In this document: positions 39,476 to 46,049 of the stretch, piece by piece | How the letters are laid out: every line of letters begins with the position of its first letter | Numbering within the stretch: the first letter of the stretch is position 1 | Assembly: GCA_038049695.1 (NCBI GenBank) | Contig: CP142455.1 | Span: 29,425,501 to 29,489,500 of the forward strand | Length of the DNA: 64,000 bases | Direction: 5' to 3' | From: Cinnamomum chago | Lineage: Eukaryota; Streptophyta; Magnoliopsida; Laurales; Lauraceae | The notes under the pieces: model-generated | What the model was told of the DNA's origin: nothing | The model's input: the letters and a program-made list of their open reading frames with translations, nothing else | The model's database searches: none | Made by a program: the position numbers and the translations under genes

Positions 39476-40132
39476 CTGAACATAAAAAAACATGGGACGG
39501 TTCGGCACAAGCCATGGAAAATCAATCCCAGTTGATTGCCTCTCATTGATGGTCACTCCATTTTGCAGTGTGCCCTCATAGAAGCTGTTAGAAGGAAATT
39601 CTAATAGGCAAGGATGCATGCGATACTGAACCTGAAATTTTGATTATAAATAAGCATACAGTCAATTAAAGGAGGAAAGAAAAGACGCACATACACACGT
39701 AGAGTGAGTAGTGGATGGTTTTGAATCCTATACTTTTTGTACTACACATCAAATATAAAGAGCGATGTCCATTAAAAACCATGGATGTACACGTCAATCC
39801 CCCCAATAAATTAAAGCAGGACCATCACCTGCAACCTGAATGGTTTGACTCCAAGGAGGACAAGGCGTTCAAAAAGAGACTGGGCTAGGCCAGCACGGGC
39901 TGCCTTCTTGCACATAATGACTGGACCTAGTTGGCAATGGTCTCCAACAAGAACAACCTAAATAACGGGAGTAAAAGGATCAGAAGGTAGAACATATCCA
40001 TGAACACTTGAAAAAAAAAATAGTACATCTACAAAGATGCAAATATCTATTTCCAATTACCTGTTTCACTCCAAGAACCAAAGGAATAAGGCACTCTGGT
40101 TCAGTTGCCTGGGTAGACTCATCAATAAGAAC
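39476..40132 (-). pseudogene. UPF1: Captured UPF1 (RENT1) helicase exons, partial
   Basis: UPF1 is the RNA helicase of nonsense-mediated decay. Three exons with intact splice sites: 40132-40061 (24 codons, [13 protein letters not shown], the Walker B region), 39957-39829 (43 codons, [14 protein letters not shown] then [17 protein letters not shown]), and 39631-39476 (52 codons, [15 protein letters not shown]). All three are whole codons in phase 0 and still open. The rest of the roughly 1,250-residue protein is absent. They lie 3' of the S3a stop on the same strand. With no start codon or promoter of their own, they are a fragment. Confidence 0.88.
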
Positions 40133-40999
40133 CTGAAAATAAGAAAAAGAGCTACAGTGAACCCAGATGGAAGATAAAACAATTTGAACTTTCGCTAATC
40201 AGAATTTTTCCTATGGGAACCCCGCACACTCAATGGTGGTCGGTGGAAATTGAAAATCCTGCACACAACCTGTGTGGAGGACTATTATAGCATAGAATTT
40301 TACCAAACATTGCTAAGCCCCAACAACTTCATTCTTGGCCTCAACCACGGTTTCTTCAGCGGGCCTCTCCAACTTTACTCCCACATCTTCTTCAGAGTAA
40401 TCTCCATGAACCTGCATAGCCCCCAACAATAATTATATATTTCAAGCAAATAATGATGATTACTGTATTTTGTATACAACACCAGTTTTGTAAATACATA
40501 AATAATTCAGTTTCTCTTTGTTCTTTTTTCAAGTAGTAGCACAGCTTATAATAGAATTGACAGGATGATATGTTTGTCACTAATTAACTAGGAATGCTCC
40601 TCTTCATTCCTGTTCAAGAATAGAGGGATGAAGAGAGTAGCCATTATTCACTTGATGGAGTCTATTTTATTTTATATTGATAAATATATGGCTCATTGTC
40701 ACCAGAAATATAAAAGGGCAACAATATCAGAAATAGATGGCAGGCAAGGGAACATACCTCCATCAGCTTGCCAAGATCAAACTTGGGGGCCTTGAGGATC
40801 TTGACTTTTTGGATGAAGACATTCTGCAGAGGATAAATACTGGATGTCACTTTTTCAATCTCCTTTCCTATCTCCTCAGGGATGAACTTTGCCACCAACT
40901 CTTTCAGATTGCAAGATGTTGCTTGGTTAACCATAATTTCTCTCATTTTCCTGCGAATCTGACACCACAAAATATCCAAAAGAAAATCACAAATGGATT

Positions 41000-42462: not shown

Positions 42463-45155
42463 CTTGAACATGCGACCAAGCTGCTCAATGCATTCCATTA
42501 CCAGCCGTTGATGACCCAGAACCTTTCGGCTCTTCATAAATCGCACAATTGATGCATCAATAGCATATCTTATATCCTTGTCAACATCTTCAATAACTTT
42601 CTTCTTCTCGTCCACTGGTGGGAGAGGAATCTATTCCAACAGATCCATTTCAAGTTGTTAACTTAAAAATTAAGTGAATAAAGATGGAAATAGCAAACAT
42701 GTAATTGAGATAACAATTCAAATCAAACAAAATTAACCCCCACCTTGATCCTCCTCAATTTGTCGGTAAACTTGGAATTGAACTCAAAGTAATCTGTAGG
42801 GGAGATTGTTTTAGTATTTGGCTCTTTATTTAGAATTTTATACTTCGCGCATGACAGAGAATGCAGTAATCTGACAATGTCCTCATCGGTCAAGTTTAGT
42901 TGAGTCATGATCTCCGAATAACTCAGTCTATCTGAAGCATTAAATAACAGCAGAACTGAGGCCTGTTTAATAAAAACAAAAAAGCTCAGCATGCACTTTC
43001 AGTCCCAAAGAATACAATCAACACATTCATTTGTTAGGGAAGAAAGATTAAAGACTTGACTGCTAAAAAGTATGAAGAAAGTTCAACGAACTCAACTGCT
43101 AAGAAGTCTGCTAGGTTGATCTAAAACATGATCCAAACTAAAATATGAATGACAACATCATTGACAATAGTTAATATATTTTCACTATCAAAATTTATAG
43201 TAGTGTCAAGTACATCTAAGAAGTGGGGTTTATCCACCTCTCATCAAGGTAAGCTGTCAAACAGAGCATCCTCTTGATGAGCCAGAACTTTCATAATATC
43301 ACTCAAATTTGTTTGACATTCTCCTCTGGATTGAATTAACCTCCTCTGGTGCTTGTCATCCCAAGATGAAAAAAGGTAGGAGCAGAAGAGGCCACTTTAA
43401 TCCAACAACCAGATGATCTTTTAATACAATAATAGTTATTATAATTAAATACTCAATTATATAAGAACCTGTAAAATAATAAAATATCCGAATAAGATAA
43501 TAATAAATAAAGTTGGGAGTACCGACCAGTCAACTTAAAATAAAATTGATTGAGCTAAGCCAGCTAGGCCTTCTGGATTGACATTGAGATTTCCATGTCC
43601 CAACAAGAAACTCAATAGCCATGACTAGCAAACTAGGTTGCAAGCACAGGGACAAAATATTTAGACCAATCTAGCCCATGGCCTTGGCCCAAGCCCAGCC
43701 ATTTAACTGAAAGCCTGTTGGTTTTGGATATGTAGGGTTGGGTACTTGGGTTAGGTTGCATCTTTGGGCAATTTGGCAAAAATCAAATCAATAGGCCACA
43801 AAATTCATGTTCGAATCCAACTCAAAGAGGGCTATATTGGGGCCACACTTGGGCTGGCCCAGACCACTTGCCACCCCACTTAGACTTGAATTACATGCAA
43901 AGTCGACTCAACTACATTTCTGAAATTGGCAGGAGATGGATTTGAAGGAGTCACTTGATATGTCGTCACTATGAGCTCCATTGTTTTCGGTTCAAACTTC
44001 CCATTGATGTTACAAGTACCCAGTGAATAGATCCATGTAAGCTTTCTATGCTTGGTTTTTGTTTGATAGAACTACTTGAAAACTTCAACACATTTAACCT
44101 GAGAAACAAACATCCATAGTTAATTTACAACGTATTCATTTATACTCTAGTGACCAAAAACCTACGCCCTTACCATCTCTGCAGGAAGGTTGAGATCAAA
44201 TGATTTATAACTTGGCCAGAATCCAGTGGTCAGGACAGTGACAGTCAAGTCCATCCCAGGGTTTGCATTAGGGTTACTGTTAAGATACTCCTCAAAGTTC
44301 GTTTGATTTTCCCTAGCTAATGTCAAATCTGTCACCTATGATAAACAATAAAAACAACAAACATAAGCACAATTCGTAACCGTTTAGATGTGTAAATGGA
44401 AGAAATGCACTTCATGAAAGATGATTCATATCAACAAACCATTCCCTCCATCTTTGATGTGAACTGCTCGCCACATTGCTGCTTTAACTTAGTCAATATA
44501 CTCCGCTCGTGGTCATCATTGGCGCTTTTATCAAAAAGAAGTCTACGAGCAAGCTTTTTCATGGAAATTAATTAAACCAAGATGGTAATAGGACAACAAT
44601 GGAAAAGAATTCACAGTTACTGAAGCCAAGTATTCAGAGCACACTTTGAAAAAAAAAAAAGAAGCATGCTAATAAAAACAATACCTATACAATTCGGCGA
44701 AAAGGTCTTTATCGCTAATATATGCAAGCAATTTTACCACCTGTAGATTATTTGAGATTATAGATGAAGTACAAGCAGTGGTCAGAAGCTGTGGAAAATT
44801 AACATCAAGTAAATAGGTAACATGGAAAAAAAATCAGAAGTTACTTTTTCAAGCATCTCCTCAATCGCTACGTCACTTAATTTTTCACTTCCACCCTTTT
44901 TAAGTATATTATCACAAAATGTAGCCAGTAACTCTACACTAGAACTGCCTGCAACACCTTTGTTGCAAAACACCTCAAAAGCCTCTTTCAGTGCCTGCAA
45001 ATGCAACTAGTGGCTCAGAGTAGTTCATATCTAAGTCAAACAGCTGGACATCAATCTCGAATACAAACCTTATGGAAAAGGGAGTGATTCATGAAGCAAT
45101 CATTCACATACGCCAAATATTTGTCATGCAGCTCAATTACTTTCCTCACGAAAAC
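42463..45155 (-). pseudogene. CUL1: Captured CULLIN1 exons, C-terminal half
   Basis: CUL1 is the scaffold of SCF ubiquitin ligases. Eight exons run 45155-45069, 44994-44845, 44740-44685, about 44562-44440, 44335-44174, 44098-43955, 42962-42744 and 42630-42463. They cover [14 protein letters not shown] through [50 protein letters not shown], the cullin repeat end and EQLGRMFK. The final exon with the winged-helix end and neddylation lysine is missing. Lesions: TAG at 44074-44072 in place of a sense codon (FK*FYQTK), and a lost AG acceptor before the fourth exon (CCATG). The last exon meets GCATTT instead of a GT donor. The N-terminal half is absent. The block sits between S3a exons on the same strand. 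Confidence 0.9.
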
Positions 45156-46049
45156 CTGAAAACCAGTTCAATCAACTTTCGACAGAAACATTGAAAGATC
45201 TTGTCCGGATTGAATTGGGCTTTTAGTATACACAGAAACAACGAAAATAAGCATCACCATCAGACCCAGAAACACATTTCCGAGTGAGAAACAGATTTCA
45301 CACACATCCTTTTTTTCACACCAATCTATTAAATCATTCCATACAATTACAAACAACAGAAAAGCTGGACAAAAGCATCAAATCCAGATATAAAACGAGA
45401 AGATCTGAAAGGTTTAGGAGACAAACCTTGGTACCCTGTGTTCGAGTGACGAGGGTTTTACCGACATTTCGGACATTGAACACCGATGGTGCTTTGATAT
45501 CATACCAATCCTTCTTAGAAAAAGGATCGACCCTAGATTAGTAATACAAACAATGAAAACAAAGATCAGATCCATAACAACCAACACAACGAGAAGATTC
45601 ACAACAAAGGGAAATATATTTAGGGTTTTATCAAACTTACGCCTTCTTCTTTCCTCCCTTTTTCCCCTTGGAGATCCTCTTGTTCTTCCTGAAATGGAAA
45701 TGAAAGACAACATGAGATCTAAATAGCAGAGACTAGAGAGAAAGAGAAGAAAGGAAGAGATGGAGATCGTGAGGGAGATGAGGGAAAAGAGCAGAGAGAG
45801 AGAGAGAGAGAGGAGCAGATCGAGATCAAGATAGAGAGAGTGAGAAAGAGCGAGAGAGAGAGAGAGAGAGAAAAGCAGATCGAGATCGACAGAGAGAGAG
45901 AGATGAGCAGAGAGAGCGTGGAGAGAGAGAGAGAGACAGTAAAAAAGAACCTCATCAAACACTTGATCCAGAGAATACTTATGATGATCAAAATCGAACC
46001 ATACCCATCTATATGGGGCCGGCTTTATCAGTTCAAATTTTCTACTCAA

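Follow-up and report, generated by a model that had tools for sequence, protein, structure and literature searches.

A CACTA transposon of Cinnamomum chago carrying unspliced, decayed pieces of the S3a, CUL1 and UPF1 genes

We examined a stretch of 64,000 nucleotides from Cinnamomum chago (GCA_038049695.1, contig CP142455.1, 29,425,501 to 29,489,500 of the forward strand; this whole stretch is called the window, and all positions refer to it). Within it, we focused on CACTA-1, an element of 8,688 bp on the minus strand (38152-46839). We observed that CACTA-1 carries pieces of three host genes, i.e. those of ribosomal protein S3a (eS1), CUL1 and UPF1, with their introns, and that the CUL1 piece stands in the place of the middle of S3a. 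There is good support for a capture of unspliced DNA within a single CACTA element. With high confidence, we regard CACTA-1 as a non-autonomous Pack-CACTA transposon, similar to Tgm-Express1, in which the S3a, CUL1 and UPF1 pieces are a decayed cargo.

CACTA-1 has CACTA terminal repeats, a 3-bp duplication and clustered subterminal repeats. The terminal inverted repeat, CACTACAAAAAAA, has a CACTA-type start and is identical at 13/13 bases between the two ends. When the ends were compared, the target-site duplication CCA was found on each side (38149-38151 on the left and 46840-46842 on the right), as in the CACTA (En/Spm) superfamily. The last two bases of the right copy are also the first two of a second CACTA element, element A, described below. 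CACTA-1 contains the motif GTG[AT]C[AG]C at 15 separate positions, and 14 of these lie within 310 bp of either end, as clusters in the terminal and subterminal regions of the 3' end (38152-38460) and the 5' end (46530-46839). In 200 mononucleotide shuffles of the element, the same end regions held a mean of 0.135 and a maximum of 2 motifs. Before the first captured exon lies a CT-rich 5' leader on the minus strand (45689-46529, with an AG/CT tract at 45788-45936). A promoter, an untranslated exon and an intron may lie within this leader, in which none of nine listed open stretches had a Pfam match reaching the cut-off.

The cargo consists of 15 exons, with 1,918 exonic bp across 6,213 bp, on the minus strand throughout. 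In the sense of transcription, the order is S3a/eS1 (two exons), CUL1 (eight exons), S3a/eS1 again (two exons, with the stop) and UPF1 (three exons). S3a starts at codon K5 (45641-45688) and runs up to codon 55 in the next exon (45427-45532). The captured CUL1 exons 1 to 8 follow at 45069-45155, 44845-44994, 44685-44740, 44440-44560, 44174-44335, 43955-44098, 42744-42962 and 42463-42630. Exon 6 of these contains a nonsense codon (TAG at 44074-44072), and CUL1 stops at residue 711 of 744 with exon 8. S3a resumes at codon 164 (40758-40958) and ends with its own stop, TAG, in its last exon (40313-40411), while the three UPF1 exons are at 40061-40132, 39829-39957 and 39476-39631. An earlier note on this DNA had described three host genes on one strand, in this order and with eight CUL1 and three UPF1 exons, inside the termini of CACTA-1. 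Translation, tblastn and the structure and protein searches confirmed the genes, the order and the counts, and all 15 exons fall between the matching ends and the CCA copies. For three blocks, a shared orientation would arise by chance in 1 case in 4. A short inverted motif resembling a CACTA end (CACTACTATAAATTTTGATAGTG, at 43205 on the minus strand) was also seen in CUL1 intron 6, where it is probably due to chance.

The full S3a, CUL1 and UPF1 proteins were used as tblastn queries against the window. The E-values were 4e-38, 1e-18 and 1e-12 for the S3a exons, 1e-71, 8e-66, 4e-30 and 3e-13 for CUL1, and 3e-32 and 2e-26 for UPF1, and the blocks are therefore not chance matches. The S3a exon at 45641-45688 (16 codons) was too short to give a tblastn match of its own, and its identity rests on translation. 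This search revealed no further significant piece of S3a, CUL1 or UPF1 in the window (next best E 1.6).

We further cross-checked the identities against solved structures and in a protein database with about 5.8 billion sequences. Among the solved structures, the S3a block matched eS1 chains (best E 3e-74) and the UPF1 block matched UPF1 chains. With the CUL1 block, chains named cullin-4 scored highest and those named cullin-1 lower (the organisms of the chains were not shown). The protein search with the chimera gave 2,962 matches from 7,994 scored candidates, and the best 120 of the 2,962 were examined. Among these, the CUL1 part had its top identity, 96%, with Persea and Cinnamomum proteins; since the Cinnamomum one is named cullin-1, we conclude that the captured cullin is plant CUL1. 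The best-scoring match (P0001) was a CUL1 model from Ancistrocladus that outscored the Persea protein with 88% identity against 96%. This is because P0001 has an internal partial duplication, covering sequence ahead of the captured CUL1 part and reaching into that part. For the S3a block, the three best protein matches among those listed were all from Persea, and UPF1 is too conserved to indicate the nearest relative. Judged by S3a and CUL1, the two informative genes, the plant would probably belong to Lauraceae or stand close to this family.

The exon borders were set by eye, following the reading frame. As a check, the joined translations of CUL1, UPF1 and the S3a N part were aligned to full proteins, and no gaps were needed. 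The start of CUL1 exon 4 was placed at 44560, since the base preceding AAAAAG is needed to fill the codon. A donor GT was present after 13 of the 14 exons needing one and an acceptor AG before 14 of 15, so that 27 of 29 borders are canonical in all. The two exceptions are in CUL1: the acceptor of exon 4 is lost (AT instead of AG), and exon 8 is followed by GC rather than GT, which may be a sequence change or a breakpoint. The claim that exon borders are preserved thus holds at 27 sites and fails at these two. The proposal that introns were captured too, by a capture at the DNA level, agrees with the canonical borders and with the intact termini and duplication of the element. As introns with near-complete canonical borders were kept, the capture of a spliced copy is strongly disfavoured.

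When the fragments were aligned with intact proteins, we observed that codons 5-55 and 164-261 of Persea S3a (P0123) are retained, while codons 56-163 are gone. The N part of S3a (residues 5-55, the first two exons) is the same as Persea S3a at 51/51 residues, without gaps, and the C part has five substitutions and one inserted residue. The CUL1 piece retains residues 343-711 of the 744 in Persea CUL1 (P0002), with 12/369 differences counting the stop, and the UPF1 piece retains residues 649-767 of the 1,272 in Magnolia UPF1 (P0251), with 4/119 differences; neither has gaps. Codons 56-163 of S3a had no significant tblastn match anywhere in the window, and CUL1 has therefore replaced the middle of S3a rather than being merely inserted into it. 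The earlier note had described CUL1 as embedded inside S3a. S3a exons do flank it, but the surrounding S3a is not intact. Two other Persea S3a models (P0121 and P0122) are without 14 residues that P0123 has just ahead of the codon at which the captured S3a resumes, and this would be consistent with a parental exon border at that codon.

The cargo is decaying as pseudogene sequence. The first coding exon of S3a (MAVG, with the start codon) is missing, and when the S3a frame is read further upstream, a stop is reached at 45735 before any ATG. If the S3a-CUL1-S3a chain is spliced as in the parental genes, it comes to 520 codons, and the frame is kept through the two S3a/CUL1 joins but is interrupted once, by a stop at codon 252. 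The in-frame joins are unremarkable and only a weak sign of function, since 10 of the 12 chimera exons end in phase 0. Because of the missing start exon, the stop at codon 252/520 and the broken acceptor, a full chimeric protein appears very unlikely. The GC donor and changes at near-invariant residues are further signs of decay. Columns were taken as near-invariant when at least 97% uniform among the best 120 matches for each gene (predominantly from flowering plants; conifers and one snail are among the few others). At 487 such residues we found 11 changes (S3a N part 0/36, S3a C part 1/51, CUL1 8/295 and UPF1 2/105), and for six of the 11, the minimal change of codon is from C:G to T:A. The column of the CUL1 nonsense codon is 88% uniform (106 E and 14 D of 120) and is outside this count.

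The per-site rates of change overlap among the blocks, which look about equally old, a comparison with little power (0, 1, 8 and 2 changes). The unchanged S3a N part is compatible with chance or with a younger age. Relative to some 1,151 nonsynonymous sites, the 11 changes amount to about 1%. At a substitution rate near 3e-9 per site per year, the age would be, very roughly, a few million years, which is an indication and not a measurement.

We also evaluated the remaining content of CACTA-1 using a Pfam search of the listed open stretches (no full gene prediction was made). No transposase was recognised, as all 31 listed open stretches (in 40950-42470, 38152-39480 and 45690-46839) were below the Pfam cut-off. 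Candidates for other gene pieces outside the exons gave only matches below the cut-off (the strongest were SeqA_N, E 0.002; DUF7300, E 0.014; ICMT, E 0.015; DUF4614, E 0.019) and were rejected. We likewise rejected the CUL1 block as a separate nested transposon, as no convincing pair was present around the block among the repeat families examined (direct, 20 largest of 51; inverted, 25 longest of 68), the repeats being short and imperfect.

As for the origin of the cargo, break repair would have copied host fragments into the element, with template switching. S3a returns after CUL1, and this would call either for a second internal event or for a round trip of the template. S3a may have been captured first, a later internal event having swapped its middle for CUL1, or the template may have changed within a single round that began on S3a, first to CUL1, then to S3a again and finally to UPF1. 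At the S3a/CUL1 joins we recognised no inner CACTA ends, and template switching is therefore favoured, if weakly. Published models include, for Pack-TYPE elements, the merging of adjacent insertions (PMC8903248, PMC13317346) and, for animal elements with terminal inverted repeats, gap filling with template switching (PMC8277862); for CACTA elements, abortive gap repair is cited in PMC8978399. CACTA-1 would then have transposed into the end of the older element A, by means of a transposase made elsewhere, and its cargo would have decayed afterwards. A functional protein is very probably not made. If the cargo is transcribed, the element would give rise to aberrantly spliced chimeric RNAs and would itself be subject to ordinary silencing.

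Some points weigh against this account. We infer the order of capture and the movement of this very cargo from the DNA as it stands today, and the scan for a transposase took in neither the introns within the captured blocks nor shorter stretches. The model of tandem insertion and fusion for Pack-CACTA elements has no direct trace at the joins. The comparison of ages is of low power, and the S3a N part is unchanged over all of its 51 residues.

Among other origins, we considered that a rearrangement had first produced an S3a-CUL1(-S3a) chimera as a pseudogene locus, which the CACTA element later took up whole, either together with UPF1 or ahead of it. The two halves of S3a retain their order and orientation around CUL1, and the overlap of changes per invariant site among the blocks would agree with such a history. 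However, the best 120 of the 2,962 protein matches (six of them examined individually) include no S3a-CUL1 fusion protein; their best local alignments span 71-80% of the query, of which CUL1 itself makes up 71%. We therefore consider a chimera-first history unlikely. Judged from the assembled sequence, a joining of the three genes by an error of assembly is hardly credible. Three wrong joins would be needed, all the fragments lie between one matching pair of termini with CCA, and three of the four blocks have changes at near-invariant residues, which would be expected in copies rather than in the original genes.

The alternatives that give the cargo a role were weighed against the same evidence. 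A working chimeric gene, expressing a fusion protein or a dominant-negative CUL1 or S3a, would profit from the 520-codon chain that is in frame over both joins bar one stop, and Tgm-Express1 does yield chimeric spliced RNAs (PMC1947982). The stop at codon 252, the lost acceptor, the missing start exon, the upstream in-frame stop without an ATG and the changed near-invariant residues all speak against it, the frame being weak evidence where most borders are in phase 0, and we regard such a gene as extremely improbable. The cargo might also be a source of small RNAs against the parental genes, or a camouflage that shields the element from silencing, as reported for captured genes in maize (reviewed in PMC13317346). 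No long hairpin was seen in the cargo, however, where the inverted repeats reach at most 24 nt (25 longest of 68, 40950-45440), and we hold a role of this kind to be quite unlikely. Small RNAs from CACTA-1 against essential genes are possible, as is a chimeric RNA, for which Tgm-Express1 is the precedent (PMC1947982). As a whole, we consider it very doubtful that successive captures took place, with the second fragment replacing the interior of the first through repeated template switching, and that sense pieces of a nonsense-mediated decay helicase and an SCF (Skp1-cullin-F-box) scaffold, lying behind the element's own leader, interfere by RNA with host quality-control genes.

CACTA-1 sits across the end of element A. 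This older CACTA element (46841-53227) has the ends CACTACTAGAAAAAA, subterminal ACCGATAT repeats and the duplication CCC. CACTA-1 spans its left end, and when CACTA-1 is removed, the CCC duplication is restored; CACTA-1 is therefore the younger insertion. In element A, 15 of 17 listed open stretches were searched (two overlapping CT-rich frames were left out), and they gave only Pfam matches below the cut-off, the best being TPX2 (50594-50848, E 0.02).

Elsewhere in the window, a 61-bp unit is repeated in tandem about four times (37791-38040), in an array that ends some 110 bp to the left of CACTA-1, and the stretch at 36840-37100 may resemble the end of a retrotransposon long terminal repeat. 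An uninterrupted frame of 886 codons on the minus strand (29633-32290) is of the CC-NB-ARC-LRR disease-resistance type (Rx_N, NB-ARC, winged helix, LRR). Several degenerate tandem arrays of about 20-21 bp and 60 bp, with units like TTTATCTGAGTT and CAGATAAATTT, occupy 4599-10484, and a frame beside them (7411-8073) has matches to MuDR transposase and PB1 below the cut-off. An open frame at 17462-17827 matches AFT (E 2e-7), with a FAR1 DNA-binding domain below the cut-off, and is probably a piece derived from FAR1/MULE.

CACTA-1 represents a capture of several genes with clean boundaries in a magnoliid (Lauraceae), with introns kept and one fragment replacing the middle of another. Together with the parental loci, it could tell stepwise internal capture from template switching in one round. 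It also carries a warning for annotation, as its exons could be called paralogues of S3a, CUL1 or UPF1. At the level of titles and abstract openings, we met no description of S3a, CUL1 and UPF1 in one element, and the few passages of literature available held no counterpart of a fragment split around another gene. The text of the avocado genome paper (PMC9531333) makes no mention of CACTA.

The closest known system is Tgm-Express1, from the wp allele of soybean (PMC1947982). Like CACTA-1, it is a CACTA element that carries fragments, with exons and introns, of several unrelated host genes (five in Tgm-Express1 and three in CACTA-1), and its size is of the same order (5.7 kb and 8.7 kb). Its five fragments splice erratically, and many of the transcripts have premature stops. 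Tgm-Express1 is located within an F3H intron and has been shown to give chimeric RNAs, whereas CACTA-1, known from sequence alone, has its site at the end of element A; in addition, CACTA-1 has one gene split around another, unlike Tgm-Express1. The Pack-CACTA elements (PMC8903248) are likewise non-autonomous, with CACTA ends and coding DNA that sometimes comes from more than one locus, but CACTA-1, unlike them, keeps long fragments of many exons. In Chenopodium (PMC8978399), CACTA elements also have subterminal repeats and fragments of host genes; the AP2 fragment there is 80 bp long and upstream of the element's coding region, whereas the interior of CACTA-1 is mostly captured and no transposase was found in it. 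CACTA-1 has the testable defining features of a multi-gene Pack-CACTA element of the Tgm-Express1 kind and appears to work like one. Together, these comparisons have led us to conclude that CACTA-1 illustrates clearly, though in an ordinary way, the gene capture already known from such elements, and that the order S3a-CUL1-S3a is mildly unusual.

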